A stretch of 64,000 nucleotides of DNA, taken from assembly GCA_964017185.1 (NCBI GenBank), contig OZ024874.1, forward strand, positions 50,496,856-50,560,855. Direction: 5' to 3'. Positions within the stretch are counted from its first letter, which is position 1; each line of letters begins with the position of its first letter. This document shows positions 32,201 to 56,721 of this stretch, one piece after another. A model generated the notes under the pieces. The model saw only the letters and a list, made by a program, of their open reading frames with translations, did no database searches and was not told the DNA's origin. This stretch comes from Rugalucina vietnamica. Its lineage: Eukaryota > Mollusca > Bivalvia > Lucinida > Lucinidae. Position numbers and translations under genes: made by a program.

Positions 32201-35175
32201 ACTGTGATAAATGTATATATTATATAAAAGTATGTGGCAAGTCTCATCAGGATTGAAAGAGGATGAGATGGGTAGCCAGGGCCCCCAATATCATGGGGGG
32301 TGTCAAAAAATTCCATTTTCGATAATTTTCGGTCTCCTGCTCCCAAACTAGCTCTTGTGCCAGGAAGCCGCTAGTACTACGACATAGATGTATAGTATAT
32401 ACAAGTATGTGGCAAGTCTCATCAGGATTGAAAGAGGATGAGATGGGTAGCCAGGGTCCCCAATGTCATGGGGGATGTCAAAAATTCCATTTTCGAGAGT
32501 TTTCGGTTTCCTGCTCCCAAACAAGCTCTTGTGCCAGGAAGCCGCTAGTACTACGACATAGATGTATAGTATATACATGTGTGTGGCAAGTCTCATCAGG
32601 ATTGAAAGAGGATGAGATGGGTAGCCAGGGCCCCCAATGTCATGGGGGATGTCAAAAATTCCATTTTCGAGAGTTTTCGGTTTCCTGCTCCCAAACTAGC
32701 TCTTGTGCCAGGAAGCCGCTAGTACTACGACATAGATGTATAGTATATACAAGTATGTGGCAAGTCTCATCAGGATTGAAAGAGGATGAGATGGGTAGCC
32801 AGACCCCCCACTATGTCAGAGGGGGGTGCAAAAAATTATTTACGATCTTTCTCGGTCTCTTGCTCCCAAACTAGCTCTTGTGCCAGGAAGCCGCTTATAC
32901 TGCAATAAAGGTATATGATATATAAATGTATGTGGCAAGTCTCATTAGGATTGAAAGAGGATGAGGAGGGTAGCCAGGCCCCCCAACGGCTCTAGGGTCA
33001 TATTTTCCTGTACAGAATTGGCTATTTTCGACACTTCTAGGTCTACTGCTCCGAAACTAGCTCTTGTGCCAGGAAGCCGCTAGTACTGTGATAAATGTAT
33101 ATGTTATATAAAAGTATGTGGCAAGTCTCATCAGGATTGAAAGAGGATGAGATGGGTAGCCAGGGCCCCCAATATCATGGTGGGTGTCAAAAATTCCATT
33201 TTCGATAGTTTTCGGTCTCCTGCTCCCAAACTAGCTCTTGTGCCAGGAAGCCGCAAGTACTACGACATAGATGTATAGTATATACAAGTATGTGGCAAGT
33301 CTCATCAGGATTGAAAGAGGATGAGATGGGTAGCCAGGGCCCCCAATGTCATGGGGGATGTCAAAAATTCCATTTTCGAGAGTTTTCGGTTTCCTGCTCC
33401 CAAACTAGCTCTTGTGCCAGGAAGCCGCTAGTACTGTGATAAATGTATATGTTATATAAAAGTATGTGGCAAGTCTCATCAGGATTGAAAGAGGATGAGA
33501 TGGGTAGCCAGGGCCCCCAATATCATGGGGGGTGTCAAAAAATTCCATTTTCGATAGTTTTCGGTCTCCTGCTCCCAAACTAGCTCTTGTGCCAGGAAGC
33601 CGCAAGTACTACGACATAGATGTATAGCATATACAAGTATGTGGCAAGTCTCATCATGATTGAAAGAGGATGAGATGGGTAGCCAGGGCCCCCAATGTCA
33701 TGGGGGATGTCAAAAATTCCATTTTCGAGAGTTTTCGGTTTCCTTCTCCCAAACTAGCTCTTGTGCCATGAAGCCGCTAGTACTGTGATAAATGTATATG
33801 TTATATAAAAGTATGTGGCAAGTCTCATCAGGATTGAAAGAGGATGAGATGGGTAGCCAGGGCCCCCAATATCATGGGGGGTGTCAAAAAATTCCATTTT
33901 CGATAGTTTTCGGTCTCCTGCTCCCAAACTAGCTCTTGTGCCAGAAAGCCGCTAGTACTACGACATAGATGTATAGTATATACAAGTATGTGGCAAGTCT
34001 CATCAGGATTGAAAGAGGATGAGATGGGTAGCCAGGGCCCCCAATGTCATGGGGGATGTCAAAAATTCCATTTTCGAGAGTTTTCGGTTTCCTGCTCCCA
34101 AACTAGCTCTTGTGCCAGGAAGCCGCTAGTACTGTGATAAATGTATATGTTATATAAAAGTATGTGGCAAGTCTCATCAGGATTGAAAGAGGATGAGATG
34201 GGTAGCCAGGGCCCCCAATATCATGGGGGTGTCAAAAAATTCCATTTTCGATAGTTTTCGGTCTCCTGCTCCCAAACTAGCTCTTGTGCCAGGAAGCCGC
34301 TAGTACTACGACATAGATGTATAGTATATACAAGTATGTGGCAAGTCTCATCAGGATTAAAAGAGGATGAGATGGGTAGCCAAGGCCCCCAATGTCATGG
34401 GGGATGTCAAAAATTCCATTTTCGAGAGTTTTCGGTTTCCTGCTCCCAAACTAGCTCTTGTGCCAGGAAGCCGCTAGTACTACGACATAGATGTATAGTA
34501 TATACAAGTATGTGGCAAGTCTCATCAGGATTGAAAGAGGATGAGATGGGTAGCCAGGGCCCCCAATGTCATGGGGGATGTCAAAAATTCCATTTTCGAG
34601 AGTTTTCGGTTTCCTGCTCCCAAACTAGCTCTTGTGCCAGGAAGCCGCTAGTACTGTGATAAATGTATATGTTATATAAAAGTATGTGGCAAGTCTCATC
34701 AGGATTGAAAGAGGATGAGATGGGTAGCCAGGGCCCCCAATATCATGGGGGGTGTCAAAAAATTCCATTTTCGATAGTTTTCGGTTTCCTGCTCCCAAAC
34801 TAGCTCTTGTGCCAGGAAGCCGCTTGTACTACGACATAGATGTATAGTATATACAAGTATGTGGCAAGTCTCATCAGGATTAAAAGAGGATGAGATGGGT
34901 AGCCAAGGCCCCCAATGTCATGGGGGATGTCAAAAATTCCATTTTCGAGAGTTTTCGGTTTCCTGCTCCCAAACTAGCTCTTGTGCCAGGAAGCCGCTAG
35001 TACTACGACATAGATGTATAGTATATACAAGTATGTGGCAAGTCTCATCAGGATTGAAAGAGGATGAGATGGGTAGCCAGACCCCCCCCCCACTATGTCA
35101 GAGGGGGGTGCAAAAAAATTATTTACGATCTTTCTCGGTCTCTTGCTCCCAAACTAGCTCTTGTGCCAGGAAGCC
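29208..35175 (+). repeat. 5.97-kb tandem duplication within D2, copy B
   Basis: Second, nearly identical copy. The join at ~29,207 fuses a D2 marker monomer (TTATTTACGATC type) to a canonical monomer within the shared CTAGCTCTTGTGCCAGGAAG. The sequence switches to AGCAGCTAG exactly as at 23,241. At the right end, 35,175, the original continuation AAGCCGCTTATACTGC is retained. The structure fits one unequal exchange 34 monomers out of register. Confidence 0.93.
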
Positions 35176-35399
35176 GCTTATACTGCAATAAAGGTATATG
35201 ACATATAAATGTATGTGGCAAGTCTCATTAGGATTGAAAGAGGATGAGGAGGGTAGCCAGGCCCCCCAACGGCTCTAGGGTCATATTTTCCTGTACAGAA
35301 TTGGCTATTTTCGACACTTCTAGGTCTACTGCTCCGAAACTAGCTCTTGTGCCAGGAAGCCGCTAGTACTGTGATAAATGTATATGTTATATAAAAGTA

Positions 35400-36240
35400 T
35401 GTGGCAAGTCTCATCAGGATTGAAAGAGGATGAGATGGGTAGCCAGGGCCCCCAATGTCATGGGGGTGTCAAAAATTCCATTTTTGAGAGTTTTCGGTTT
35501 CCTGCTCCCAAACTAGCTCTTGTGCCAGGAAGCCGCTAGTATACGACATAGATGTATAGTATATACAAGTATGTGGCAAGTCTCATCAGGATTGAAAGAG
35601 GATGAGATGGGTAGCCAGGGACCCGAATGTCATGGGGTGTGTAAAAAATATTATTTTCGAGAGTTTTCGGTTTCCTGTTCCGAAACTAGCTCTTGTGCCA
35701 GGAAGCCGCTAGCACTACGACATAGATGTATAGTATATACAAGTATGTGGCAAGTCTCATCAGGATTGAAAGAGGATGAGATGGATAGCCAGACCCCCAA
35801 CTATGTACTAGCGGCTTCCTGGCACAAAAACTAGTTTGGGAGCAGGGGACCGAAAACTATCGAAAATAGAATTTTTTTACACCCCCATGACATTGGGGGC
35901 CCTGGCTACCCATCTCATCCTCTTTCAATCCTGATGAGACTTGCCACATACTCGTATATACTATACATCTATGTCGTAGTACTAGCGGCTTCCTGGCACA
36001 AGGGCTAGTTTGGGAGCAGGAGACTGAAAACTATGGAAATGGGAAATTTTTTGACACCCCCCATGACATTGGATGCCCTGGCTACCCATCTCATCCTCTT
36101 TCAGTCCTGATAAGACTTGCCACATACTTGTATATACCATGTATATATGTCTTGGTACTAGCGGCGTCCTGGCACAAGAGCTAGTTTGGGAGCAGGAAAC
36201 CGAAAACTATCGAAAATGGATTTTTTGACACCCCCATGAC
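35400..36240. repeat. Strand-switch zone with decayed monomers
   Basis: Forward monomers end at 35,806 (AACTATGT) and inverted ones begin at once with ACTAGCGGCTTCC. The two bases GT at the join could belong to either side. Monomers on both sides carry many private changes: GGGACCCGAATGTC and CACTACGACATAG on the left, and CATACTCGTATATAC, GGGCTAGTTTGG, TATGGAAATGGG and TATATGTCTTGGTAC on the right. No spacer or foreign DNA separates the arms. Confidence 0.92.
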
Positions 36241-36402
36241 ATTGGGGGCCCTGGCTAACCATCTCATCCTCTTTCAATCCTGATGAGACTTGCCACATAC
36301 TTGTATATTCTATACATCTATGTCGTAGTATTAGCGGCTTCCTGGCACAAGAGCTAGTTTGGGAGCAGGGGATCGAAAACTATCGAAAATGGAATTTTTT
36401 GA

Positions 36403-37798
36403 CACCCATGACATTGGGGGCCCTGGCTACCCATCTCATCCCCTTTCAATCCTGATGAGACTTGCCACATACTTGTATATACTATACATCTATGTCGTAG
36501 TACTAGCGGCTTCCTGGCACAAGAGCTAGTTTGGGAGCCGGATACCGAAAATTATCGAAAATGGATTTTTTTGACACCCCCATGATATTTGGGGCCCTGG
36601 CTACCCATCTCATCCTCTTTCAATCCTGATGAGACTTGCCACATACTTGTATATACTATACATCTATGTCGTAGTACTAGCGGCTTCCTGGCACAAGAGC
36701 TAGTTTGGGAGCAGGAGACGGAAAACTATCGAAAATGGAATTTTTGACACCCCCATGATATTGGGGGCCCTGGCTACCCATCTCATCCTCTTTCAATCCT
36801 GATGAGACTTGCCACATACTTGTATATACTATACATCTATGTCGTAGTACTAGCGGCTTCCTGGCACAAGAGCTAGTTTGGGAGCAGGAAACCGAAAACT
36901 CTCGAAAATGGAATTTTTGACACCCCCATGACATTGGGGGCCCTGGCTACCCATCTCATCCTCTTTCAATCCTGATGAGACTTGCCACATACTTGTATAT
37001 TCTATACATCTATGTCGTAGTACTAGCTGCTTCCTGGCACAAGAGCTAGTTTGGGAGCAGGAGACCGAAAACTATCGAAAATGGAATTTTTTGACACCCC
37101 CATGACATTGGGGGCCCTGGCTACCCATCTCATCCTCTTTCAATCCTGATGAGACTTGCCACATACTTGTATATACTATACATCTATGTCGTAGTACTAG
37201 CGGCTTCCTGGCACAAGAGCTAGTTTGGGAACAGGAGACGGAAAACTATCGAAAATGGAATTTTTTGACACCCCCCATGACATTGGGGGCCCTGGCTACC
37301 CATCTGATCCTCTTTCAATCCTGATGAGACTTGGCATATACTTGTATATACTATACATCTATGTCGTAGTACTAGCGGCTTCCTGGCACAAGAGCTAGTT
37401 TGGGAGCAGGAGACCGAAAACTATCGAAAATGGAATTTTTTGACACCCCCATGACATTGGGGGCCCTGGCTACCCATCTCATCCTCTTTCAATCCTGATG
37501 AGACTTGCCACATACTGACTTGTATTTACTATACATCTATGTCGTAGTACTAGCGGCTTCCTGGCACAAGAGCTAGTTTGGGAGCAGGAGACCGAAAACT
37601 ATCGAAAATGGAATTTTTTGACACCCCCATGACATTGGGGGCCCTAGCTACCCATCTCATCCTCTTTCAATCCTGATGAGACTTGCCACATACTTGTATA
37701 TACTATACATCTATGTCGTAGTACTAGCTGCTTCCTGGCACAAGAGCTAGTTTGGGACCAGGAGAACGAAAACTATCGAAAATGGAATTTTTTGACAC
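36403..37798 (-). repeat. 1.4-kb (8-monomer) tandem duplication in D3, copy A
   Basis: Aligns with 37,799-39,193 at an offset of ~1,396 bp. Shared rare variants are GAGCCGGATACCG (36,534 and 37,930), ATGATATTTGGGGCC, the four-base insertion in CATACTGACTTGTATTTAC (near 37,511 and 38,908) and GGGACCAGGAGAACG (37,754 and 39,149). Confidence 0.85.
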
Positions 37799-39193
37799 CC
37801 CCCATGACATTGGGGGCCCTGGCTACCCATCTCATCCCCTTTCAATCCTGATGAGACTTGCCACATACTTGTATATACTATACATCTATGTCGTAGTACT
37901 AGCGGCTTCCTGGCACAAGAGCTAGTTTGGGAGCCGGATACCGAAAATTATCGAAAATGGATTTTTTTGACACCCCCATGATATTTGGGGCCTGGCTACC
38001 CATCTCATCCTCTTTCAATCCTGATGAGACTTGCCACATACTTGTATATACTATACATCTATGTCGTAGTACTAGCGGCTTCCTGGCACAAGAGCTAGTT
38101 TGGGAGCAGGAGACGGAAAACTATCGAAAATGGAATTTTTGACACCCCCATGATATTGGGGGCCCTGGCTACCCATCTCATCCTCTTTCAATCCTGATGA
38201 GACTTGCCACATACTTGTATATACTATACATCTATGTCGTAGTACTAGCGGCTTTCTGGCACAAGAGCTAGTTTGGGAGCAGGAAACCGAAAACTCTCGA
38301 AAATGGAATTTTTGACACCCCCATGACATTGGGGGCCCTGGCTACCCATCTCATCCTCTTTCAATCCTGATGAGACTTGCCACATACTTGTATATTCTAT
38401 ACATCTATGTCGTAGTACTAGCTGCTTCCTGGCACAAGAGCTAGTTTGGGAGCAGGAGACCGAAAACTATCGAAAATGGAATTTTTTGACACCCCCATGA
38501 CATTGGGGGCCCTGGCTACCCATCTCATCCTCTTTCAATCCTGATGAGACTTGCCACATACTTGTATATACTATACATCTATGTCGTAGTACTAGCGGCT
38601 TCCTGGTACAAGAGCTAGTTTGGGAGCAGGAGACGGAAAACTATCGAAAATGGAATTTTTTGACACCCCCATGACATTGGGGGCCCTGGCTACCCATCTG
38701 ATCCTCTTTCAATCCTGATGAGACTTGCCATATACTTGTATATACTATACATCTATGTCGTAGTACTAGCGGCTTCCTGGCACAAGAGCTAGTTTGGGAG
38801 CAGGAGACCGAAAACTATCGAAAATGGAATTTTTTGACACCCCCATGACATTGGGGGGCCCTGGCTACCCATCTCATCCTCTTTCAATCCTGATGAGACT
38901 TGCCACATACTGACTTGTATTTACTATACATCTATGTCGTAGTACTAGCGGCTTCCTGGCACAAGAGCTAGTTTGGGAGCAGGAGACCGAAAACTATCGA
39001 AAATGGAATTTTTTGACACCCCCATGACATTGGGGGCCCTGGCTACCCATCTCATCCTCTTTCAATCCTGATGAGACTTGCCACATACTTGTATATACTA
39101 TACATCTATGTCGTAGTACTAGCTGCTTCCTGGCACAAGAGCTAGTTTGGGACCAGGAGAACGAAAACTATCGAAAATGGAATTTTTTGACAC
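37799..39193 (-). repeat. 1.4-kb (8-monomer) tandem duplication in D3, copy B
   Basis: Second copy of 36,403-37,798. It differs by scattered substitutions and one- to two-base changes, so it is older than the 5.97-kb event in D2. Boundaries are approximate because the breakpoints fall in sequence common to all monomers. Confidence 0.83.
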
Positions 39194-42100
39194 CCCCCAT
39201 GACATTGGGGGCCCTGGCTACCCATCTCATCCTCTTTCAATCCTGATGAGACTTGCCACATACTTGTATATACTATACATCTATGTCGTAGTACTAGCGG
39301 CTTCCTGGCACAAGAGCTAGTTTGGGAGCAGGAGACGGAAAACTATCGAAAATGGAATTTTTTGACACCCCCATGACATTGGGGGCCCTGGCTACCCATC
39401 TCATCCTCTTTCAATCCTGATGAGACTTGCCACATACTTGTATATACTATACATCTATGTCGTAGTACTAGCGGCTTCCTGGCACAAGAGCTAGTTTGGG
39501 AGCAGGAGACCGAAAACTATCGAAAATGGATTTTTTTGATACCCCCATGACATTGGGGGCCCTGGCTACCCATCTCATCCTCTTTCAATCCTGATGAGAC
39601 TTGCCACATACTTGTATTTACTATACATCTATGTCGTAGTACTAGCGGCTTCCTGGCACAAGAGCTAGTTTGGGAGCAGGAGACCGAAAACTATCGAAAA
39701 TGGATTTTTGACACCCCCCATGACATTTAGGGCCCTGTCTACCCATCTCATCCTCTTTCAATCCTGATGAGACTTGTCACATACTTGTATATACTATACA
39801 TCTATGTCGTAGTACTAGCGGCTTCCTGGCACAAGAGCTAGTTTGGGAGCAGGAAACCAAAAACTCTCGAAAATGGAATTTTTGACACCCCCCATGACAT
39901 TGGGAGCCCGGGCTACCCATCTCATCCTCTTTCAATCCTGATGAGACTTGCCACATACTTGTATATAACATATACATTTATCACAGTACTAGCGGCTTCC
40001 TGGCACAAGAGCTAGTTTCGGAGCAGTAGACCTAGAAGTGTCGAAAATAGGCAATTCTGTACAGGAAAATATGTCCCTAGAGGCGTTGGGGGCCTGGCTT
40101 CCCTCCTCATCCTCTTTCAATCCTAATGAGACTTGACACATACATTCACATATCATATACCTTTATTGCAGTATAAGCGGCTTTCTGGCACAAGAGCTAG
40201 TTTGGGAGCAAGATACCGAGAAATATCGAAAATATGTTTTTTGGCACCCCACTCTGACATAGTGGGGGGTCTGGCTACCCATCTCATCCTCTTTCAATCC
40301 TGATGAGACTTGCCACATACTTGTATATACTATACATCTATGTCGTAGTACTAGCGGCTTCCTGGCACAAGAGCTAGTTTGGGAGCAGGAAACCGAAAAC
40401 TCTCGAAAATGGAATTTTTGACACCCCCATGATATTGGGGGCCCTGGCTACCCATCTCATCCTCTTTCAATCCTGATGAGACTTGCCACATACTTGTATA
40501 TACTATACATCTATGTCGAAGTACTAGCTGCTTCCTGGCACAAGAGCTAGTTTGGGAGCAGGAGACCGAAAACTATCGAAAATGGAATTTTTTGACACCC
40601 CCCATGACATTTGGGGCCCTGGCTACCCATCTCATCCTCTTTCAATCCTGATGAGACTTGCCACATACTTGTATATACTATACATCTATGTCGTAGTACT
40701 AGCGGCTTCCTGGCACAAGAGCTAGTTTGGGAGCAGGAGACGGAAAACTATCGAAAATGGAATTTTTTGACACCCCCCCTTGACATTGGGGGCCCTGGCT
40801 ACCCATCTGATCCTCTTTCAATCCTGATGAGACTTGCCACATACTTGTATTTACTATACATCTATGTCGTAGTACTAGCGGCTTCCTGGCACAAGAGCTA
40901 GTTTGGTAGCAGGAAACCAAAAACTCTCGAAAATGGAATTTTTGACACCCCCCATGACATTGGGAGCCCGGGCTACCCATCTCATCCTCTTTCAATCCTG
41001 ATGAGACTTGCCACATACTTGTATATAACATATACATTTATCACAGTACTAGCGGCTTCCTGGCACAAGAGCTAGTTTCGGATCAGTAGACCTAGAAGTG
41101 TCGAAAATAGCCAATTCTGTACAGGAAAATATGACCCTAGAGCCGTTGGGGGGCCTGGCTACCCTCCTCATCCTCTTTCAATCATAATGAGACTTGACAC
41201 ATACATTCATATATCATATACCTTTATTGCAGTATAAGCGGCTTTCTGGCACAAGAGCTAGTTTGGGATCAAGATACCGAGAAATATCGAAAATATTTTT
41301 TTGCACCCCCCTCTGACATAGTGGGGGGTCTGGCTACCCATCTCATCCTCTTTCAATCCTGATGACACTTGCCACATACTTGTATATACTATACATCCAT
41401 GTCGTAGTACTAGCGGCTTCCTGGCACAAGAGCTAGTTTGGGAGCAGGAAACCGAAAACTCTCGAAAATGGAATTTTTGACAGCCCCCATGACATTGGGG
41501 GCCCTGGCTACCCATCTCATCCTCTTTCAATCCTGATGAGACTTGCCACATACTTGTATATACTATACATCTATGTCGTAGTACTAGCTGCTTCCTGGCA
41601 CAAGAGCTAGTTTGGGAGCAGGAGACGGAAAACTATCGAAAATGGAATTTTTTGACACCCCCATGACATTGGGGGCCCTGGCTACCCATCTCATCCTCTT
41701 TCAATCCTGATGAGACTTGCCACATACTTGTATTTACTATACATCTATGTCGTGGTACTAGCGGCTTCCTGGCACAAGAGCTAGTTTGGGAGCAGGAGAC
41801 CGAAAACTATCGAAAATGGAATTTTTTGACACCCCCATGACATTGGGGGCCCTGGCTACCCATCTCATCCTCTTTCAATCCTGATGAGACTTGCCACATA
41901 CTTGTATATACTATACATCTATGTCGTAGTACTAGCGGCTTCCTGGCACAAGAGCTAGTTTGGGAGCAAGAGACAGAAAACTATCGAAAATGGAATTTTT
42001 TAACACCCCCATGACATTTGGGGCCCTAGCTACCCATCTCATCCTCTTTCAATCCTGATGAGACTTGCCACATACTTGTACATACTATACATCTATGTCG

Positions 42101-43269
42101 TAGTACTAGCGGCTTCCTGGCACAAGAGCTAGTTTGGGAGCAGGAAACCAAAAACTCTCGAAAATGGAATTTTTGACACCCCCCATGACATTGGGAGCCC
42201 GGGCTACCCATCTCATCCTCTTTAAATCCTGATGAGACTTGCCACATACTTGTATATAATATATACATTTATCACAGTACTAGCGGCTTCCTGGCACAAG
42301 AGCTAGTTTCGGAGCAGTAGACCTAGAAGTGTCGAAAATAGCCAATTCTGTACAGGAAAATATGACCCTAAAGGCGTTGGGGGCCTGGCTTCCCTCCTCA
42401 TCCTCTTTCAATCCTAATGAGACTTGACACATACATTCATATATCATATACCTGTATTGCAGTATAAGCGGCTTTCTGGCACAAGAGCTAGTTTGGGAGC
42501 AAGATACCGAGAAATATCGAAAATATTTTTTTTGCACCCCTCTCTGACATAGTGGGGGTCTGGCTACCCATCTCACCCTCTTTCAATCCTGATGAGACTT
42601 GCCACATACTTTAATATACTATACATCTATGTCGTAGTACTAACGGCTTCCTGGCAGAAGAGCTAGTTTGGGAGCAGGAAACCGAAAACTCTCGAAAATG
42701 GAATTTTTGACACCCCCCATGACATTGGGGGCCCTGGCTACCCATCTCACCCTCTTTCAATCCTGATGAGACTTGCCACATACTTGTATATACTATACAT
42801 CTATGTCGTAGTACTAGCTGCTTCCTGGCACAAGAGCTAGTTTGGGAGCAGGAGACCGAAAACTATCGAAAATGGAATTTTTTGACACCCCCATGACATT
42901 GGGGGCCCTGGCTACCCATCTCATCCTCTTTCAATCCTGATGAGACTTGCCACATACTTGTATATACTATACATCTATGTCGTAGTACTAGCGGCTTCCT
43001 GACACAAGAGCTAGTTTGGGAGCAGGAAACCGAAAACTCTCGAAAATGGAATTTTTGACACCCCCCATGACATTGGGGGCCCTGGCTACCCATCTCATCC
43101 TCTTTCAATCCTGATGAGACTTGCCACATACTTGTATATACTATACATCTATGTCGTAGTACTAGCGGCTTCCTGGCACAAGAGCTAGTTTGGGAGCAGG
43201 AGACGGAAAACTATCGAAAATGGAATTTTTTGACACCCCCCATGACATTGGGGGCCCTGGCTACCCATC

Positions 43270-45731
43270 TGATCCTCTTTCAATCCTGATGAGACTTGCC
43301 ACATACTTGTATATACTATACATCTATGTCGTAGTACTAGCGGCTTCCTGGCACAAGAGCTAGTTTGGGAGCGGGAAACCAAAAACTCTCGAAAATGAAA
43401 TTTTTGACACCCCCCATGACATTGGGAGCCCGGGCTACCCATCTCATCCTCTTTCAATCCTGATGAGACTTGCCACATACTTGTATATAACATATACATC
43501 TATCACAGTACTAGCGGCTTCCTGGCACAAGAGCTAGTTTCGGATCAGTAGACCTAGAAGTGTCGAAAATAGCCAATTCTGTACAGGAAAATATGACCCT
43601 AGAGCCGTTGGGGGGCCTGGCTACCCTCCTCATCCTCTTTCAATCCTGATGAGACTGGACACATACATTCATATATCATATACCTTTATTGCAGTAGAAG
43701 CGGCTTTCTGGCACAAGAGCTAGTTTGGGATCAAGATACCGAGAAATATCGAAAATATTTTTTTGCACCCCCCTCTGACATAGTGGGGGGTCTGGCTACC
43801 CATCTCATCCTCTTTCAATCCTGATGACACTTGCCACATACTTGTATATACTATACATCTATGTCGTAGTACTAGCGGCTTCCTGGCACAAGAGCTAGTT
43901 TGGGAGCAGGAAACCGAAAACTCTCGAAAATGGAATTTTTGACACCCCCATGACATTGGGGGCCCTGGCTACCCATCTCATCCTCTTTCAATCCTGATGA
44001 GACTTGCCACATACTTGTATATACCATACATCTATGTCGTAGTACTAGCGGCTTCCTGGCACAAGAGCTAGTTTGGGAGCAGGAGACCGAAAACTATCGA
44101 AAATGGAATTATTTGACACCCCCCATGACATTGGGGGCCCTGGCTACCCATCTCATCCTCTTTCAATCCTGATGAGACTTGCCACATACTTGTATATACT
44201 ATACATCTATGTCGTAGTACTAGCGGCTTCCTGGCACAAGAGCTAGTTTGGGAGCAGGAGACAGAAAACTATCGAAAATGGAATTTTTTAACACCCCCAT
44301 GACATTTGGGGCCCTGGCTACCCATCTCATCCTCTTTCAATCCTAATGAGACTTGCCACATACTTGTATATACTATACATCTATGTCGTAGTACTAGCGG
44401 CTTCCTGGCACAAGAGCTAGTTTGGGAGCAGGAAACCAAAAACTCTCGAAAATGGAATTTTAGACACCCCCCATGACATTGGGAGCCCAAGCTACCCATC
44501 TCATCCTCTTTCAATCCTGATGAGACTTGCCACATACTTGTATATAACATATACATTTATCACAGTACTAGCGGCTTCCTGGCACAAGAGCTAGTTTCGG
44601 AGCAGTAGACCTAGAAGTGTCGAAAATAGCCAATTCTGTACAGGAAAATATGACCCTAGAGGCTTTGGGGGGCCTGGCTTCCCTCCTCATCCTCTTTCAA
44701 TCCTAATGAGACTTGACACATACTTTCATATATCATATACCTGTATTGAAGTATAAGCGACTTTCTGGCACAAGAGCTAGTTTGGGAGCAAGATACCGAG
44801 AAATATCGAAAATATTTTTTTTGCACCCCCCTCTGACATAGTGGGGGTCTGGCTACCCATCTCATTCTCTTTAAATCCTGATGAGACTTGCCACATACTT
44901 GTATATACTATACATCTATGTCGTAGTACTAACGGCTTCCTGGCACAAGAGCTAGTTTGGGAGCAGGAAACCGAAAACTCTCGAAAATGGAATTTTTGAC
45001 ACCGTCCATGACATTGGGGGCCCTGGCTACCCATCTCATCCTCTTTCAATCCTGATGAGACTTGCCACATACTTGTATATACTATACATCTATGTCGTAG
45101 TACTAGCTGCTTCCTGGCACAAGAGCTAGTTTGGGAGCAGGAGACCAAAAACTATCGAAAATGGAATTTTTTGACACCCCCCATGACATTGGGGGCCCTG
45201 GCTACCCATCTCATCCTCTTTCAATCCTGATGAGACTTGCCACATACTTGTATATACTATACATCTATGTCGTAGTACTAGCGGCTTCCTGGCACAAGAG
45301 CTAGTTTGGGAGCAGGAAACCGAAAACTCTCGAAAATGGAATTTTTGACACCCCCCATGACATTGGGGGCCCTGGCTACCCATCTCATCCTCTTTCAATC
45401 CTGATGAGACTTGCCACATACTTGTATATACTATACATCTATGTCGTAGTACTAGCGGCTTCCTGGCACAAGAGCTAGTTTGGGAGCAGGAGACCGAAAA
45501 CTATCGAAAATGGAATTTTTTGACACCCCCATGACATTGGGGGCCCTGGCTACCCATCTCATCCTCTTTCAATCCTGATGAGACTTGCCACATACTTGTA
45601 TATACTGTACATCTATGTCGTAGTACTAGCGGCTTCCTGGCACAAGAGCTAGTTTGGGAGCAGGAGACCGAAAACTATCGAAAATGGAATTTTTTGACAC
45701 CCCCATGTCATTGGGGGCCCTGGCTACCCAT
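43270..45731 (-). repeat. ~2.46-kb higher-order unit in D3, copy A
   Basis: Aligns with 45,732-48,196 at offsets of 2,462-2,465 bp. Shared private variants include GAGCGGGAAACC (43,370 and 45,833), GGAATTATTTGACACC, GGAGCCCAAGCTACC, CTTTGGGGGGCC and CCCCCATGTCATTGG (45,703 and 48,168). Each copy carries two marker pairs. Confidence 0.8.
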
Positions 45732-48196
45732 CTCATCCTCTTTCAATCCTGATGAGACTTGCCACATACTTGTATATACTATACATCTATGTCGTAGTAC
45801 TAGCGGCTTCCTGGCACAAGAGCTAGTTTGGGAGCGGGAAACCAAAAACTCTCGAAAATGAAATTTTTGACACCCCCCATGACATTGGGAGCCAGGGCTA
45901 CCCATCTCATCCTCTTTCAATCCTGATGAGACTTGCCACATACTTGTATATAACATATACATCTATCACAGTACTAGCGGCTTCCTGGCACAAGAGCTAG
46001 TTTCGGATCAGTAGACCTAGAAGTGTCGAAAATAGCTAATTCTGTACAGGAAAATATGACCCTAGAGCCGTTGGGGGGCCTGGCTACCCTCCTCATCCTC
46101 TTTCAATCCTGATGAGACTTGACACATACATTCATATATCATATACCTTTATTGCAGTATAAGCGGCTTTCTGGCACAAGAGCTAGTTTGGGATCAAGAT
46201 ACCGAGAAATATCGAAAATATTTTTTTTGCACCCCCCTCTGACATAGTGGGGGGTCTGGCTACCCATCTCATCCTCTTTCAATCCTGATGACACTTGCCA
46301 CATACTTGTATATACTATACATCTATGTCGTAGTACTAGCGGCTTCCTGGCACAAGAGCTAGTTTGGGAGCAGGAAACCGAAAACTCTCGAAAATGGAAT
46401 TTTTGACACCCCCCATGACATTGGGGGCCCTGGCTACCCATCTCATCCTCTTTCAATCCTGATGAGACTTGCCACATACTTGTATATACCATACATCTAC
46501 GTCGTAGTACTAGCTGCTTCCTGGCACAAGAGCTAGTTTGGGAGCAGGAGACCGAAAACTATCGAAAATGGAATTATTTGACACCCCCCATGACATTGGG
46601 GGCCCTGGCTACCCATCTCATCCTCTTTCAATCCTGATGAGACTTGCCACATACTTGTATATACTATACATCTATGTCGTAGTACTAGCGGCTTCCTGGC
46701 ACAAGAGCTAGTTTGGGAGCAGGAGACAGAAAACTATCGAAAATGGAATTTTTTAACACCCCCATGACATTTGGGGCCCTGGCTACCCATCTCATCCTCT
46801 TTCAATCCTGATGAGACTTGCCACATACTTGTATATACTATACATCTATGTCGTAGTACTAGCGGCTTCCTGGCACAAGACCTAGTTTGGGAGCAGGAAA
46901 CCAAAAACTCTCGAAAATGGAATTTTAGACACCCCCCATGACATTGGGAGCCCAAGCTACCCATCTCATCCTCTTTCAATCCTGATGAGACTTGCCACAT
47001 ACTTGTATATAACATATACATTTATCACAGTACTAGCGGCTTCCTGGCACAAGAGCTAGTTTCGGAGCAGTAGACCTAGAAGTGTCGAAAATAGCCAATT
47101 CTGTACAGGAAAATATGACCCTAGAGGCTTTGGGGGGCCTGGCTTCCCTCCTCATCCTCTTTCAATCCTAATGAGACTTGACACATACATTCATATATCA
47201 TATACCTGTATTGAAGTATAAGCGACTTTCTGGCACAATAGCTAGTTTGGGAGCAAGATACCGAGAAATATCGAAACTATTTTTTTTGCACCCCCCTCTG
47301 ACATAGTGGGGGTCTGGCTACCCATCTCATCCTCTTTCAATCCTGATGAGACTTGCCACATACTTGTATATACTATACATCTATGTCGTAGTACTAACGG
47401 CTTCCTGGCACAAGAGCTAGTTTGGGAGCAGGAAACCGAAAACTCTCGAAAATGGAATTTTTGACACCCCCATGACATTGGGGGCCCTGGCTACCCATCT
47501 CATCCTCTTTCAATCCTGATGAGACTTGCCACATACTTGTATATACTATACATCTATGTCGTAGTACTAGCTGCTTCCTGGCACAAGAGCTAGTTTGGGA
47601 GCAGGAGACCAAAAACTATCGAAAATGGAATTTTTTGACACCCCCCATGACATTGGGGGCCCTGGCTACCCATCTCATCCTCTTTCAATCCTGATGAGAC
47701 TTGCCACATACTTGTATATACTATACATCTATGTCGTAGTACTAGCGGCTTCCTGGCACAAGAGCTAGTTTGGGAGCAGGAAACCGAAAACTCTCGAAAA
47801 TGGAATTTTTGACACCCCCCATGACATTGGGGGCCCTGGCTACCCATCTCATCCTCTTTCAATCCTGATGAGACTTGCCACATACTTGTATATACTATAC
47901 ATCTATGTCGTAGTACTAGCGGCTTCCTGGCACAAGAGCTAGTTTGGGAGCAGGAGACCGAAAACTATCGAAAATGGAATTTTTTGACACCCCCATGACA
48001 TTGGGGGCCCTGGCTACCCATCTCATCCTCTTTCAATCCTGATGAGACTTGCCACATACTTGTATATACTATACATCTATGTCGTAGTACTAGCGGCTTC
48101 CTGGCACAAGAGCTAGTTTGGGAGCAGGAGACCGAAAACTATCGAAAATGGAATTTTTTGACACCCCCATGTCATTGGGGGCCCTGGCTACCCATC
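45732..48196 (-). repeat. ~2.46-kb higher-order unit in D3, copy B
   Basis: Second copy of the 14-monomer block at 43,270-45,731. Divergence is visibly greater than between the 5.97-kb copies. End points are estimated to within about one monomer. Confidence 0.8.
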
Positions 48197-51100
48197 TCAT
48201 CCTCTTTCAATCCTGATGAGACTTGCCACATACTTGTATTTACTATACATCTATGTCGTAGTACTAGCGGCTTCCTGGCACAAGAGCTAGTTTGGGAGCA
48301 GGAGACCGAAAACTATCGAAAATGGAATTTTTTGACACCCCCATGACATTGGGGGCCCTGGCTACCCATCTCATCCTCTTTCAATCCTGATGAGACTTGC
48401 CACATACTTGTATATGCTATACATCTATGTCGTAGTACTAGCGGCTTCCTGGCACAAGAGCTGGTTTGGGAGCAGGAGACCGAAAACTATCGAAAATGGA
48501 ATTTTTTGACACCCCCCATGACATTTGGGGCCCTGGCTACCCATCTCATCCTCTTTCAATCCTGATGAGACTTGCCACATACTTGTATATACTATACATC
48601 TATGTCGTAGTACTAGCGGCTTCCTGGCACAAGAGCTAGTTTGGGAGCAGGAAACCAAAAACTCTCGAAAATGGAATTTTTGACATCCCCATGACATTGG
48701 GAGCCCGGGCTACCCATCTCATCCTCTTTCAATCCTGATGAGACTTGCCACATACTTGTATATAACATATACATTTATCACAGTACTAGCGGCTTCCTGG
48801 CACAAGAGCTAGTTTCGGAGCAGTAGACCTAGAAGTGTCGAAAATAGCCAATTATGTACAGGACAATATGACCCTAGAGGCGTTGGGGGGCCTGGCTTCC
48901 CTCCTCATCCTCTTTCAATCCTAATGAGACTTGACACATACATTCATATATCATATACCTTTATTGCAGTATAAGCGGCTTTCTGGCACAAGAGCTAGTT
49001 TGGGAGCAAGATACCGAGACATATCGAAAATATTTTTTGCACCCCCCTCTGACATAGTGGGGGGTCTGGCTACCCATCTCATCCTCTTTCAATCCTGATG
49101 AGACTTGCCACATACTTGTATACTATACATCTATGTCGTAGTACTAGCGGCTTCCTGGCACAAGAGCTAGTTTGGGAGCAGGAAACCGAAAACTCTCGAA
49201 AATGGAATTTTTGACACCCCCCATGACATTGGGGGCCCTGGCTACCCATCTCATCCTCTTTCAATCCTGATGAGACTTGCCACATACTTGTATACATGTA
49301 TACTATACATCTATGTCGTAGTACTAGCGGCTTCCTGGCACAAGAGCTAGTTTGGGAGCAGGAGACGGAAAACTATCGAAAATGGAATTTTTTGACACCC
49401 CCATGACATTGGGGGCCCTGGCTACCCATCTCATCCTCTTTCAATCCTGATGAGACTTGCCACATACTTGTATATACTATACATCTATGTCGTAGTACTA
49501 GCGGCTTCCTGGCACAAGAGCTAGTTTGGGAGCAGGAGACCGAAAACTATCGAAAATGGAAATTTTGACACCCCCATGACATTGGGGGCCCTGGCTACCC
49601 ATCTCATCCTCTTTCAATCCTGATGAGACTTGCCACATACTTGTATATACTATACATCTATGTCGTAGTACTAGCTGCTTCCTGGCACAAGAGCTAGTTT
49701 GGAGCAGGAGACCGAAAACTATCGAAAATGGAATGTTTTGACACCCCCCATGACATTGGGGGCCCTGGCTACCCATCTCATCCTCTTTCAATCCTGATGA
49801 GACTTGCCACATACTTGTATATACTATACATCTATGTCGTAGTACTAGCGGCTTCCTGGCACAAGAGCTAGTTTGGGAGCAGGAAACCGAAAACTATCGA
49901 AAATGGAATTTTTGACACCCCCATGACATTGGGGGCCCTGGCTACCCATCTCATCCTCTTTCAATCCTGATGAGACTTGCCACATGCTTGTATATACTAT
50001 ACATCTATGTCGTAGTACTAGCGGCTTCCTGGCACAAGAGCTAGTTTGGGAGCAGGAGACGGAAAACTATCGAAAATGGAATTTTTTGACACCCCCATGA
50101 CATTGGGGGCCCTGGCTACCCATCTCATCCTCTTTCAATCCTGATGAGACTTGCCACATACTTGTATATACTATACATCTATGTCGTAGTACTAGCGGCT
50201 TCCTGGCACAAGAGCTAGTTTGGGAGCAGGAGACCGAAAACTATCGAAAATGGAATTTTTTGACACCCCCATGACATTGGGGGCCCTGGCTACCCATCTC
50301 ATCCTCTTTCAATCCTGATGAGACTTGCCACATACTTGTATATACTATACATCTATGTCGTAGTACTAGCTGCTTCCTGGCACAAGAGCTAGTTTGGGAG
50401 CAGGAGACCGAAAACTATCGAAAATGGAATTTTTTGACACCCACCATGACATTGGGGGCCCTGGCTACCCATCTCATCCTCTTTCAATCCTGATGAGACT
50501 TGCCACATACTTGTATATACTATACATCTATGTCGTAGTACTAGCGGCTTCCTGGCACAAGAGCTAGTTTGGGAGCAGGAAACCAAAAACTCTCGAAAAT
50601 GGAATTTTTGACACCCCCATGACAGTGGGAGCCCGGGCTACCCATCTCATCCTCTTTCAATCCTGATGAGACTTGCCACATACTTGTATATAACATATAC
50701 ATTTATCACAGTACTAGCGGCTTCCTGGCACAAGAGCTAGTTTCGGAGCAGTAGACATAGAAGTGTCGAAAATAGCCAATTCTGTACAGGAAAATATGAC
50801 CCTAGAGGCGTTGGGGGGCCTGGCTTCCCTCCTCATCCTCTTTCAATCCTAATGAGACTTGACACATACATTCATATATCATATACCTTTATTGCAGTAT
50901 AAGCGGCTTTCTGGCACAAGAGCTAGTTTGGGAGCAAGATACCGAGAAATATCGAAAATATTTTTTTTGCACCCCCCTCTGACATAGTGGGGGGGCTGGC
51001 TACCCATCTCATCCTCTTTCAATCCTGATGAGACTTGCCACATACTTGTATATACTATACATCTATGTCGTAGTACTAGCGGCTTCCTGGCACAAGAGCT

Positions 51101-52599
51101 AGTTTGGGAGCAGGAAACCGAAAACTCTCGAAAATGGAATTTTTGACACCCCCCATGACATTGGGGGCCCTGGCTACCCATCTCATCCTCTTTCAATCCT
51201 GATGAGACTTGCCACATACTTGTATATACTATACATCTATGTCGTAGTACTAGCTGCTTCCTGGCACAAGAGCTAGTTTGGGAGCAGGAGACCGAAAACT
51301 ATCGAAAATGGAATTTTTTGACACCCCCCATGACATTGGGGGCCCTGGCTACCCATCTCATCCTCTTTCAATCCTAATGAGACTTGCCACATACTTGTAT
51401 ATACTATACATCTATGTCGTAGTACTAGCGGCTTCCTGGCACAAGAGCTAGTTTGGGAGCAGGAAACCGAAAACTCTCAAAAATGGAATTTTTGACACCC
51501 CCCATGACATTGGGGGCCCTGGCTACCCATCTCATCCTCTTTCAATCCTGATGAGACTTGCCACATACTTGTATATACTATACATCTATGTCGTAGTACT
51601 AGCGGCTTCCTGGCACAAGTGCTAGTTTGGGAGCAGGAGACCGAAAACTATCGAAAATGGAATTTTTTGACACCCCCATGACATTGGGGGCCCTGGCTAC
51701 CCATCTCATCCTCTTTCAATCCTGATGAGACTTGCCACATACTTGTATATACTATACATCTATGTCGTAGTACTAGCGGCTTCCTGGCAAAAGAGCTAGT
51801 TTGGGAGCAGTAGACCGAAAACTATCGAAAATGGAATTTTTTGACACCCCCCATGACATTTGGGGCCCTGGCTACCCATCTCATCCTCTTTCAATCCTAA
51901 TGAGACTTGCCACATACTTGTATATACTATACATCTATGTCGTAGTACTAGCGGCTTCCTGGCACAAGAGCTAGTTTGGGAGCAGGAAACCGAAAACTCT
52001 CGAAAATGGAATTTTTGACACCCCCATGACATTGGGGGCCCTGGCTACCCATCTCATCCTCTTTCAATCCTGATGAGACTTGCCACATACTTGTATATAC
52101 TATACATCTATGTCGTAGTACTAGCTGCTTCCTGGCATAAGAGCTAGTTTGGGAGCAGGAGACCGAAAACTATCGAAAATGGAATTTTTTGACACCCCCC
52201 ATGACATTGGGGGCCCTGGCTATCCATCTCATCCTCTTTCAATCCTGATGAGACTTGCCACATACTTGTATATACTATACATCTATGTCGTAGTACTAGC
52301 GGCTTCCTGGCACAAGAGCTAGTTTGGGAGCAGGAGACCGAAAACTCTCGAAAATGGATTTTTTGTCACCCCCCATGACATTGGGGTCCCTGGCTACCCA
52401 TCTCATCCTCTTTCAATCCTGATGAGACTTGCCACATACTTGTATATACTATGCATCTATGTCGTAGCACTATCGGCTTCCTGGCACAAGAGCTAGTTTG
52501 GTAGCAGTAGACCAAAAACTATCGAAAATGGAATTTTTTGACACCCCCCATGACATTTGGGGCCCTGGCTACCCATCTCATCCTCTTTCAATCCTGATG

Positions 52600-52985
52600 A
52601 GACTTGACACAAAACTTCATAGGACATATATCTATATTCAAGCATAAGCGGCTTGCTGGCACAAGAGCTGGTTTGGGAGCAGGAGACCGAGGAATATAAA
52701 AAACCGCATTTTAGACACCCCCTCTGACTTTTGGCGCCCTGACTACCCTTCGGATCCTCTTTCAATCCTGATGAAACTTGCCACAAACCTTCATAGAACA
52801 TTTATCTATATCGCAGTATAAGCGGCTTGCTGGCACAAGAGCTGGATTCGGAACAGAATCTCGAGAAATATGGAAAGAAGCATTTTTGACACACCCCCCC
52901 CCCTCTGACTTTTGGCGCCCTGACTACTGAGACTTACCACAAACCTTCATACAACATGTATCTATATTGCAGTATAAGCTGCTTG
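52600..52985 (-). repeat. Decayed terminal monomers at the right edge of the satellite
   Basis: The last two to three units are recognisable but heavily diverged. CTTTCAATCCTGATGA and AAGCGGCTTGCTGGCAC remain, while the central part has changed to ATATAAAAAACCGCATTTTAG and CTGACTTTTGGCGCCCTGAC, and the final unit has lost part of its length. The last traceable piece is AGTATAAGCTGCTTGCC near 52,971-52,987. Confidence 0.88.
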
Positions 52986-53052
52986 CCTAAACAAGAACTA
53001 GTACGGGAACAGGAGTTGTTTTGACATGAACCACTTTTACTGGGCAGGTCCA

Positions 53053-53121
53053 GATGAAATTTTCATCCAACTTTTTTTTTCTTCTGCTAGATGAAATTTT
53101 CACCGGATGAAATTTTCATCC
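53053..53121. repeat. Three copies of a short palindrome at the satellite border
   Basis: GATGAAATTTTCATC occurs complete at 53,053 and 53,106 and partly at 53,090 (GATGAAATTTTCAC). It is a near-perfect palindrome with seven-base arms. The cluster lies within 70 bp of the end of the array. No gene or known element is evident here. Confidence 0.75.
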
Positions 53122-54080
53122 AACTTGACGCCGGTCCGAACAACTAACTAAATCGGGACTAAATGTCTTCTGAGCAAATTGATGCTTTTTACCAAACTTA
53201 CACTGAACCCCTTCCCCCCACGACCATAAAGTTAATACCTATAAATTTGTACAGTTTAAACAATTTTGACAGCAAACATGCCCATTCGCACTCAAAGGGC
53301 TGTCAGACCAACTCAAATGAACATCTACAACTCATAGTCTTCTTCCAACTATCTTTTTGTGTAAGTTTGGTTAAAATCCATTCATTTATCCAGAAGATAT
53401 TGCGTCAGAAAAGCTAATTTTGACAGTTTTCACGGGCTGGTCACCTTGAAAAATAGGTCAAGGTCACCAAAAGCTAATAAACTCTTTCCCCTCTCCCAGC
53501 CATGTATCTAAGACGGTTACGGTGTCTTCCGTAGAAAGAAACTTCATGTCAGAAGGTAACTACCCTTCAATTACTTTACGGTTGGGGGAGAGGGGCATAG
53601 TTTTCCTCAGAAAACACTGTTACAGTAGTTTTAATTTATATTTAAAGAGCATCACTCAGATTCATCTGCATTATATATTCATTATTAGTTATTGGATTTA
53701 CATTAATATTTTCAACAACAACAACAAAAAGCATGTGCGCAACATTGGGTATTGTATGCCCAATATTGAACATCAAGTGTACAACAGAGCATGTTCTTAA
53801 ATAAAGTGAAAGTTTGCTGAATACATGAAATGTTCTACCAGATTATGATTATAAATTCCCAACATTGTGAATGTGTTTGAAATACATGTACAGCTCAGGA
53901 AATGGCTCAATGGAACAGCTGTTTAACAGGTTCCCTTCAATAAATGAGCCGCCTCGTGGGGAAAACCAACAATTTGGTTTCCGAACAGGTCCGACACAAA
54001 CCGACCTGAACAAGCACAGAAAAGCTAGAAGTTTAAAATTTCGGATTCAAGTAGAAGAGGAATTGTACTATCCGAGTAGC
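53122..54080. other. Intergenic stretch, no convincing gene
   Basis: Open frames here (53,163-53,417 and 53,522-53,800) lack recognisable domains and have AT-rich, low-complexity composition, so I do not call them genes. The part at about 53,340-53,470 resembles a dispersed bivalve-type repeat and contains AGGTCAAGGTCACC. A short CAACAACAACAACAAAAAG tract lies near 53,715. Confidence 0.6.
53340..53475 (+). repeat. Dispersed repeat fragment with AAGGTCA motif
   Basis: The run from GTAAGTTTGGTTAAAATCC through CAGAAGATATTGCG to AGGTCAAGGTCACC has the style of a high-copy dispersed bivalve repeat. A related TGACCTTGACC occurs in the tandem repeat at 63.2 kb. The assignment rests on remembered pattern, not on a second full copy in this window. 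Confidence 0.45.
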
Positions 54081-54577: not shown

Positions 54578-54810
54578 AAAGGTACAAGTAGGCAAAGATC
54601 AGGAAAAGGCGCAATCAGAAAAAATGTTACACTTCAAAAACCGAGATGGGAAAGAAACTTAATTAACAATCAGGCACTTAGAAAGAGATTCCCCACTCCA
54701 AAAACCGAGGTGGAAAAAAAAACAAATCAACAATCGGGCACTTAAACCATGAAAACATATAGTAAGCCGAATGAGCAGCTATTTTCCCAATAGGAGGCCC
54801 CTCGGTTACC
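54578..54810 (+). repeat. Dispersed repeat (family R2), copy 1, with internal duplication
   Basis: GGTACAAGTAGGCAAAGATC and AGGAAAAGGCGCAATCAGAA recur with small changes at 63,058-63,100. Inside this copy, a segment with CAAAAACCGAGATGG and ACAATCAGGCACTTA (from ~54,633) is followed about 64 bp later by a second version with CAAAAACCGAGGTGG and ACAATCGGGCACTTA. The family is not identified. Confidence 0.7.
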
Positions 54811-55252
54811 TAAAAATAACTAAAATATGAAACAAACAGCACAAAAATGTTTAACACAAGGACATGAAACAAAAAGAACCACCACAGAAGTATCGCATTG
54901 GAACGATCAGTAATATAAAATTACTGGCGGGCTTAAATCGATTTCACATGACCATAACGTGACCTCATCATCAGCTTCTGGAGTGGTTCATAACATTTAG
55001 TTAGTTCTTTGGTCCTCGTGGTGAATCTCTAACTAGTCAATGAATCATCAAGGACAAACAAATAATTCATAATAAACATCCTGATGAATCAAAAACGAGG
55101 AGTCAACAGATTATGTAAGCTGCCCGACGATGGAGACCCTGGGCGCCGAATAACTTACTGAATCCCGGAGCAAAAGAAAAACACCAGTTGGACTTCGGTG
55201 GGCCAAGCAACAGACAAGAAGCTCCGGTTCCAACCAACTAAAATGAATAGCT
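54811..55252. other. Noncoding stretch, probably decayed repeat
   Basis: No host gene is visible. On the minus strand a potential stem-loop (GAGGTCACGTTATGGTCATG followed by TGAAATCG, around 54,936-54,983) resembles the hairpins at the 3' ends of some non-LTR elements, but the similarity is only in style. The stretch lies just downstream, in minus orientation, of the open frame at 55,253-55,525 and may be its trailing noncoding part. Confidence 0.4.
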
Positions 55253-55525
55253 TTAAGTCGGGGCCATCATAGAGTCTGACGCCCGACCCACCGGCGTACA
55301 ATTAAAGAAGGCAGCATAGTTATCAACCATGATTGGGTTAAAAACTAAGCATGCAGACTGTCGCATATCATTCAAGTTATAACCTATTCGTCTGTAACGT
55401 GTAATGATGTTTCTGAACTGAAAAGAAAAATCATTCCTACCTGTAAGTTTCTTAAATTTGTAAATGAAGTCACCATAAAATTCTGGTTTCGAAAGGCCCT
55501 CACCTAGCGTCTTTAACCCAACATT
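55253..55525 (-). other. Orphan 90-codon open frame, C-terminal-like fragment of unknown protein
   Basis: On the minus strand a frame stays open for 90 codons and ends in TAA at 55,253. It has no ATG near its start; the first Met is at about residue 52. It reads as ordinary protein, with LSKPEFYGDFIYKFKKLTG near the start, then FRNIITRYRRIGYNLNDM, then CLVFNPIMVDNYAAFFNC and a PVGRASDSMMAPT end. Composition is balanced and unlike the repetitive frames nearby. I believe related tails recur in bivalve genomes as part of a mobile element, but I cannot name the family. It is either the last part of an element's coding region or a host exon. No partner exons are evident within this window. Confidence 0.5.
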
Positions 55526-55929
55526 TTATTTGGAAATCAATTCATAGTGTCTACGATAAAATATAGAACATGTATTTCGATCTAATACAATCTTTTAATT
55601 CGAATAGAAAATGTAGTCCGGACAACTATAAAAAATTGTGGAGAAACAGCTTGAACTGTTAGCCTATTTTTGCTATTTAACAAAAGTTTCAACTATCGCC
55701 TCACATGGCAACCAATTTCTTTTATCATGTATCATTCAGACATATTGTATGCGAAGTTGTATTTTCATTCAGACATGGTCAAAATAGGCAAAAATGCACT
55801 CCATCTCCTGTGTGAAACCATGACAAGGCTAAAAGAATGAATAAGATCATTGTTTTGGGATTTTAAAAATAAAACCTTGTGGCAGTTCAAACAATTAATA
55901 TACAAAAGCATTCTGACAACGTTCAATAA
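55526..55929. other. AT-rich stretch without recognisable feature
   Basis: I see no coding frame with recognisable content, no tandem repeat and no strong palindrome. The minus-strand frame that enters it from 56,106 is carried mainly by the repeat at 55,930-56,155. Confidence 0.5.
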
Positions 55930-56363: not shown

Positions 56364-56699
56364 TAGAGGAAATTCAACAAAAATGAGATAAAATCAAAAA
56401 TCACTCCTAACACCCCTAAAAATGAATGTGGACTCATCCAATTGATAATGATGGGAAAATCCATTCGTCAAATATGGGTTAAGGGATCATTGGAAGCAGG
56501 GTTTTATGGATATCTTTGTATACTTTTTAAATTATTGTTTATGAACAGAATAAATCGTAGTCACGGCTGACGATGCATGGAGCAGAAAGGCATGAGCACT
56601 ACTGTTCTTAAGGAATATTTGATTTCTAGACCAGTGTAACGCAGCACATTTAAGTTTTCCAAGCATACATGTATTACTACATGTACTTATTATTTGCAG
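56364..56699 (+). other. Upstream flank ending in a splice acceptor
   Basis: No gene is visible. The stretch ends in a pyrimidine-containing tract and TTATTATTTGCAG at 56,687-56,699, a good 3' splice site directly before the first coding exon. This suggests one or more noncoding 5' exons further upstream that I could not place. I found no convincing TATA box or initiator. Confidence 0.55.
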
Positions 56700-56721
56700 G
56701 GGTACCGTTTCTCGTCATCAT
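56700..56721 (+). other. 5' UTR portion of the first coding exon
   Basis: Twenty-two bases lie between the predicted acceptor (AG at 56,698-56,699) and the ATG at 56,722. No in-frame stop occurs in them, so the start codon choice rests on the signal-anchor sequence that follows immediately. Confidence 0.6.

Follow-up and report, generated by a model that had tools for sequence, protein, structure and literature searches.

Structure of the array and its termini

The window (i.e., the whole stretch of 64,000 nucleotides that was analysed, located at C6:50,496,856-50,560,855) contains an array of 174-bp tandem repeats. Decomposition with a monomer profile resolved 303 monomers between positions 2 and 52,974, with 205 monomers in + orientation followed by 98 in - orientation, a single strand switch, and gaps of ≤12 bp between all monomers; by its length and homogeneity this is a satellite array. 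Tandem Repeats Finder returned the identical two arrays (115-35,800 and 35,805-52,843). At the breakpoint (...CCCCCAACTATGTACTAGCGG...), the source monomers overlap by 2 bp (GT, as judged by eye), and the initial annotation, which had described one sharp switch without a spacer and with at most two bases of ambiguity, was therefore correct on this point.

Both edges of the array are formed by one sequence of approximately 120 bp, present in inverted orientation at 53,135 in the window and 2,251 bp before the window begins. Directly after the right end comes CCGAACAAC, and a perfect match to these 9 bp is found immediately to the left of the left end; the two form a target-site duplication (TSD). 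The element delimited in this way has a total length of 55,386 bp (Table 1). The same terminus was found at both edges of a short 6.6-kb copy on C10 as well as at one edge each of a C6 and a C9 copy. The sequence common to these ends stops at ACCGGCG..., and the sequence outside differs except for short dispersed repeats (six flanks compared). Two of the eight array edges compared, i.e., the right edge of the copy on C1 and a fragment on C13, were rejected as element ends. A common non-satellite flank was also considered as the mobile unit and rejected, as the region 52,860-56,860 matches other loci mainly through a dispersed repeat (Table 1). The terminus contains three copies of the palindrome GATGAAAATTTCATC, one of them with a mismatch (read by eye); judged from their sequence, these are possible candidates for transposase-binding sites.

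Pieces of a gene similar to those encoding Core-2/I-branching enzymes are located approximately 3.5 kb beyond the right end, and the element thus adjoins a gene or a gene relic. A second tandem repeat lies further to the right, with a monomer length similar to that of the satellites borne by Helitrons in oysters. No match to an RNA family at gathering score was found in the window.

Table 1. Features of the window (positions in the window unless preceded by a contig name) and of the element that extends beyond its left edge.
Feature	Position	Strand	Remarks
Left arm, 174-bp monomers	1-35804, continuing 2,251 bp left of the window	+	38,056 bp in total; left terminus at C6:50494605
Two members of a recurring variant triplet, not decayed	35000-35364	+	near-identical copies elsewhere
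Central core, private monomers	35366-36503	.	inner ±400 bp mostly in register among J1 copies
Strand switch, very probably the element centre; junction type J1, 2-bp overlap GT	35805-35806	.	14 copies in the genome
Right arm, monomers in - orientation	35807-53015	-	17,330 bp including the terminus
Divergent outer part of the right arm (last three monomers)	52,474-52,974	-
Right terminus, non-satellite, reading inward ACCGGCGTCAAGTTGG...	53016-53135	-	first 50 bases: 173 copies in the genome
9-bp target-site duplication, CCGAACAAC	53136-53144	.	identical to the 9 bp at C6:50494596-50494604 (locus L025)
Dispersed repeat, ~0.9 kb	~54674-55580		39 other copies with 88-90% identity among 40 candidates scored
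Core-2/I-branching enzyme-like gene pieces	56623-57723 and 58339-58653	+	PF02485, E = 6.4e-30 and 1.7e-8
Second tandem repeat, ~161 bp	59551-60823		copies matching at 77-84%

Copies of the terminus and of the junction in the genome

All results were obtained from one genome (G000, 1.09 Gb), in which 17 large contigs represent 1.088 of 1.090 Gb. A search with the terminal 50-mer, allowing ≤3 mismatches, yielded 173 matches (92 forward and 81 reverse) and none for the reversed pattern used as a control. The set of ends used for pairing comprised 110 listed ends, namely 100 of these 173 matches and 10 ends from a search in which 40 of 240 candidates were scored; because the 100 ends listed are all exact matches, the pairs derived from them are not a random sample. 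When ends in forward-reverse order within 150 kb were paired, 76 of the 110 listed ends formed 38 inverted pairs on 14 contigs, and adjacent listed ends <150 kb apart were found in any other order in only five instances. These 38 listed pairs span 6,570 to 102,700 bp (median 40.7 kb; 1.52 Mb in sum). A 9-bp direct repeat flanks 28 of the pairs exactly, four with one mismatch, and one with two mismatches, and the five other pairs presented three to eight mismatches; among mismatched left-right combinations used as controls (n = 1,406), none presented zero or one mismatch and three presented two. The five pairs without a recognisable 9-bp duplication may include some false pairs or recombined copies. 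The largest listed element (G000:C6:2208037-2310736; 102.7 kb) presented a J1 centre, i.e., the junction of the window, 55.6 and 47.1 kb from its two ends; the two 9-bp flanks of this element differ at one base.

In the genome search, the region around the junction was matched over its whole length on other chromosomes. A 31-base breakpoint pattern, searched with ≤3 mismatches, produced 14 matches (six forward and eight reverse) on 11 chromosomes, i.e., on C1, C2, C4, C5, C6 (three), C7, C9, C10, C13 (two), C14, and C17; the reversed-pattern control produced none. The breakpoint is identical in all thirteen J1 copies compared, which over ±440 bp showed a mean identity of 92.4% (range 87.0-98.4%), with the highest value for the window and the copy on C1. 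A locus on C15 carries a junction that is related to J1 yet different. Five of the 14 J1 copies are located inside a listed pair, seven are accompanied by a single listed end in the correct orientation, at a distance of no more than 43 kb, and two (C4 and C14) have no suitably placed end among the 110 listed. The view that the switch does not represent a recent false join, which had previously been argued from the divergence of the adjoining monomers, was confirmed on other grounds, since the same breakpoint was found at 14 sites on 11 chromosomes; the flanks also differ at the sites for which both ends were read.

Junction sequences other than J1 were identified at two further switches (C7:12.35 and C6:50.646 Mb) and in elements at C3:8.18, C10:52.95, and C9:32.4 Mb; in the sequence read, each of these five presented one switch with polarity + then -. 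This polarity is common to all 19 switches seen (the window, 12 other J1 copies, the C15 locus, and the five others). Among the three other junctions that were searched for, those on C3 and C7 are unique in the genome and that on C9 is present in four copies. The smallest unpaired loop between the arms measures 3, 11, 45, 69, 95 (window), 105, and 113 bp in the seven junction types measured and is thus always shorter than one monomer, i.e., the centres are near-palindromes. Folded as single-stranded DNA, the centre in the window forms an extended hairpin (-137.6 kcal/mol, z = -21.7), as expected of any inverted arms. Loops shorter than one monomer fit a scenario in which centres would be re-formed by small deletions or template switches across the palindrome. 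In one of the regions with another junction (C7:12.331-12.365 Mb; parts in L022 and L023), the left half of the query is matched every 1,944 bp (approximately 11 monomers) on the + side of the switch, and a spacing of 3,178 bp is present on both sides; these intervals suggest a higher-order repeat.

Divergence and register of monomers around the switch

Monomers for several hundred bases on each side of the switch had initially been described as clearly more diverged than the others, as at the right outer edge. When distance from the consensus was used, a window of four monomers at 35,000 presented a value of 0.141, which compares to 0.138 at 48,615, 0.133 at 22,202, and 0.132 at a further place; the right edge of the array reached 0.193. 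This peak is not special, because a triplet of variant monomers (approximately 175, 184, and 172 bp; n = 23 for the 184-bp member) recurs throughout both arms. As it is confounded by this triplet, consensus divergence was dropped as a measure of decay and replaced by the distance of each monomer to its nearest neighbour. The monomers at 35,000-35,178 and 35,181-35,364, which had been regarded as decayed, are in fact triplet members with near-identical copies (nearest-neighbour distances of 0.017 and 0.005), and the initial description does not hold for them. It does hold closer to the switch: among 301 full-length monomers, six of the 11 most private ones by nearest-neighbour distance belong to the central core (Table 1) and three to the right outer edge. 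The mean nearest-neighbour distance was 0.067 at <350 bp from the switch (n = 3), 0.024 at 350-700 bp (n = 4), and 0.004-0.007 at >700 bp (right edge left out). A profile of divergence along the array, as had been suggested as a check, thus presents a real peak at the switch by nearest-neighbour distance and no special one by distance from the consensus. The proposed likeness of the switch to the right edge is superficial, as the outermost 162 bp are conserved between copies and the centre varies.

Aligning the monomers of 14 loci by their ordinal position relative to the switch produced noisy distances and was of little use; register was instead assessed with 31-mers unique within 10 kb in the 78 pairs of 13 J1 copies. 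Over the bins reported, 1,541 of the 1,800 words in register are located ≤400 bp from the switch, where 410 words are out of register, versus 183 words in register and 4,295 out of register at >800 bp. The window-C1 pair alone supplies 342 in-register words, and three of the 12 pairs shown individually supply none. Under a stricter definition of uniqueness (the whole element versus 30 kb of C1), register between the window and C1 is limited to the range of -0.3 to +0.8 kb, and common blocks outside this range are displaced by 3.5, 6.4 kb, and more. Words that are unique in the window element and >1.5 kb from its centre were found in the pieces of C1 at up to 201 per 10 kb and strand; 156 such words were also found in an element without J1 (L028), indicating that arm sequence does not track kinship of the centres closely.

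From the terminus inward, identity decreases from 98.5% over the outermost 162 bp (nine ends of seven elements) to 93.9% over the next 540 bp and 84.3% over the next 400 bp. The two arms of the window element are more similar to each other than this comparison of different ends (99.1% at 162-700 bp and 98.5% at 700-1,100 bp from the termini, as compared to 93.9% and 84.3%), while the two arms of the C10 copy differ in the same outer ranges (90.9% and 76.1%). Clear in-register identity between the arms of the window element is confined to approximately the outer 1 kb, with 483 of the 681 common arm-unique words at zero shift. An alignment of the outer 4 kb at 97-99.6% had been considered as evidence that the arms homogenise together; this was rejected, as these values are barely above those of any two canonical monomers.

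It had also been proposed that the two orientations homogenise separately. Near the switch this is supported by our data: for canonical monomers 0.7-5 kb on each side, the across-minus-within distance was 0.016 at the switch versus ≤0.008 at 126 pseudo-switch points, and the proportion of nearest neighbours on the same arm was 0.74 versus 0.56 with shuffled labels. Over whole arms, however, the proposal fails, as the mean distance between arms (0.041) is similar to those within arms (0.043 and 0.037; 222 canonical monomers) and one consensus describes both. The switch is thus a local barrier to homogenisation, and the idea of an internal array end that is shielded from homogenisation was borne out by the concentration of in-register words within 400 bp of the switch. 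The shape observed is one in which the centre and the outermost bases are kept and the arms are rewritten.

A very probable foldback transposon with satellite arms

The window element has long terminal inverted repeats that consist largely of tandem repeats, a target-site duplication of fixed length (9 bp), and dispersed copies at unrelated sites (173 termini and 38 listed pairs on 14 contigs), as do foldback transposons. The inverted termini, the 9-bp TSD, and the genome-wide pairs together argue that the "satellite" is a giant foldback transposon and that the switch is its centre. With a probability of approximately 0.92, we interpret the array in the window as one insertion of a non-autonomous, foldback-type DNA transposon with arms of 174-bp tandem repeats in inverted orientation and no spacer, and the strand switch as the centre of this transposon rather than as a flip inside an ordinary satellite. 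No account of this element was found in the open-access literature searched.

A mechanism consistent with these observations can be proposed. A transposase acting on the termini in trans would have moved a smaller J1-bearing element to many sites; a 6.6-kb J1 copy with an exact TSD is present on C10. At each site, the arms may then have grown, shrunk, and homogenised through unequal exchange and conversion among near-identical monomers. Monomers adjacent to the centre would escape homogenisation and retain private mutations, because they have same-orientation partners on one side only. From time to time, a deletion or a template switch across the palindrome would create the centre anew, and the new centre may then serve as a heritable tag of its lineage. 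Under this mechanism, the strand switch would record transposition history and not an inversion inside a centromeric satellite. We favour an order of events in which small forms jump and then grow into satellite arrays, because the 6.6-kb J1 copy has an exact TSD and the arms lose register. It is possible, yet in our judgement unlikely, that an array of 50-100 kb transposes from one chromosome to another as a single unit, such that the satellite would spread in this genome by transposition of whole arrays and the heritable centre of each would be a pedigree tag.

No transposase linked to the ends was found among the listed elements, of whose interiors the smaller part was read: of the 59 matches to PF10551 (MULE) in the genome, none falls inside one of the 38 pairs, and none comes closer than 20 kb to any of the 110 listed ends. 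Nor was a coding core found in three other elements, in which satellite occupies all of the 8.4 of 12.9, 10.5 of 17.2, and 10.7 of 17.4 kb read, except for gaps of approximately 0.2 kb. Target-site duplications of MULEs measure 8-11 bp, according to excerpts of PMC6446971; the 9-bp duplication identified here falls into this Mutator-like range and, by analogy, suggests a Mutator-type transposase.

An ordinary (e.g., centromeric) satellite array with an internal inversion, with orientations that homogenise apart from each other and a breakpoint functioning as an array end, is a good description of the switch itself, covering the single switch, the private monomers beside it, the local barrier, and the bias toward neighbours on the same arm. 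As a full account it is refuted by arrays bounded by inverted termini with 9-bp TSDs, and it also has to contend with the same breakpoint in 14 copies and with multiple bounded arrays per chromosome (e.g., five listed pairs on C9), which argue against centromeric satellite as the main identity; we consider it highly improbable. We give similarly little credence to a spread of the junction and the arrays in which chromosomes acquired them through segmental duplication or ectopic exchange instead of transposition. In its favour, five of the 38 end pairs lack the 9-bp duplication, and arm words unique within the window element were found at many other loci, with or without J1, indicating that elements do exchange sequence or share descent; however, the sequence outside the termini differs among copies except for short dispersed repeats (in the six flanks mentioned above), and a site-specific, exact 9-bp duplication flanks 28 of the 38 listed pairs. 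Large inverted repeats are prone to misassembly and a known cause of assembly errors, but an artefact, whether a false join or a palindromic read artefact, has next to no probability here, as one breakpoint combined with independent divergence in 13 copies (1.6-13% over ±440 bp, at different places) is a combination that artefacts would not produce. A Helitron or Helentron with a central tandem array, a common satellite-carrying transposon of bivalves, can likewise be dismissed almost entirely, since Helitrons have dissimilar ends and are not known to create a target duplication, whereas both ends of the element described here are the same sequence, inverted, and flanked by a 9-bp duplication. 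Oyster satellites of approximately 160-170 bp are often found within Helitrons, and those described in the available parts of two reports (Cg170/HindIII; PMC8268682, PMC12628747) resemble the foldback element of the window in monomer length and in their location inside a bivalve mobile element; they differ in forming short arrays (approximately six monomers on average), while the arrays here have inverted termini and a 9-bp TSD.

The closest precedent for this foldback element is Tetris, a foldback transposon that gave rise to the TIR-220 satellite of Drosophila virilis, as described in the portions of PMC4079207 consulted. Both elements are non-autonomous, with terminal inverted repeats in which an outer unique domain precedes the tandem repeats (approximately 220 bp in Tetris versus 174 bp here), both have TSDs of similar length (8-10 bp versus 9 bp) and repeats that expand into satellite arrays, and a transposase was found neither here nor, in those portions of the description, for Tetris, which its authors propose to assign to the Mutator superfamily on the basis of TSD length (PMC4079207). 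As given in the same portions, the inverted repeats of Tetris measure up to 1,735 bp and include a middle domain, the structurally complete copies number only three, and arrays that had grown long, to as many as 66 copies, were considered disruptive of the element (PMC4079207). The arrays identified here, in contrast, lie between TSD-flanked termini that are 6.6-103 kb apart, with zero to two TSD mismatches in 33 of the 38 listed pairs; no middle domain is present at the switches read, and centre junctions are common to several copies. New relative to Tetris are thus scale and integrity, i.e., arrays of up to approximately 100 kb between TSD-flanked termini, in tens of copies, with centres that mark lineages.

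Inverted arms with tandem repeats, and a length of these arms that varies among copies, are also found in FB of Drosophila melanogaster and in Galileo. Both have lengths of a few kb, and the duplications of Galileo measure 7 bp. Galileo is assigned to the P superfamily in the consulted part of PMC4079207, where FB is mentioned as well. Rehavkus resembles the element described here in its 9-bp TSD and in containing a minisatellite, but, as stated in excerpts of PMC6446971, encodes a transposase with a PHD finger and has one minisatellite, in front of the 3′ terminal inverted repeat; the element described here has an array in each arm, and the sequence read from it and its relatives yielded no coding part.

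How satellites spread between chromosomes, and how their arrays grow and are homogenised, are long-standing questions; they are difficult to address experimentally, as an array lacks fixed points of reference. An array of the type described here can have three such points, namely two termini, whose TSD marks the insertion as independent, and a centre junction, by which the lineage can be recognised. One genome offers dozens of arrays of 6.6 to 103 kb with a known insertion site, some of them of known kinship, in which growth, loss, and exchange between arms are directly measurable; the pattern of centre, arms, and outer ends reported above is already one such measurement.

Several further observations concern non-satellite sequence in J1 copies and the assembly. 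The right arm of the copy on C1, the closest J1 copy, contains a 4.1-kb insert (L009:9277-10000 and L032:1-3355) with reverse transcriptase (PF00078) and endonuclease (PF03372) domains, indicating a non-LTR retrotransposon that landed within the foldback arm. A 3-kb non-satellite stretch with no open frame of >120 residues is located in the left arm of a J1 copy on C7 (L016:527-3483; 27.65 Mb). The contig with COX1 (G000:C47) has a length of 30,680 bp, which is long for an animal mitochondrial genome.
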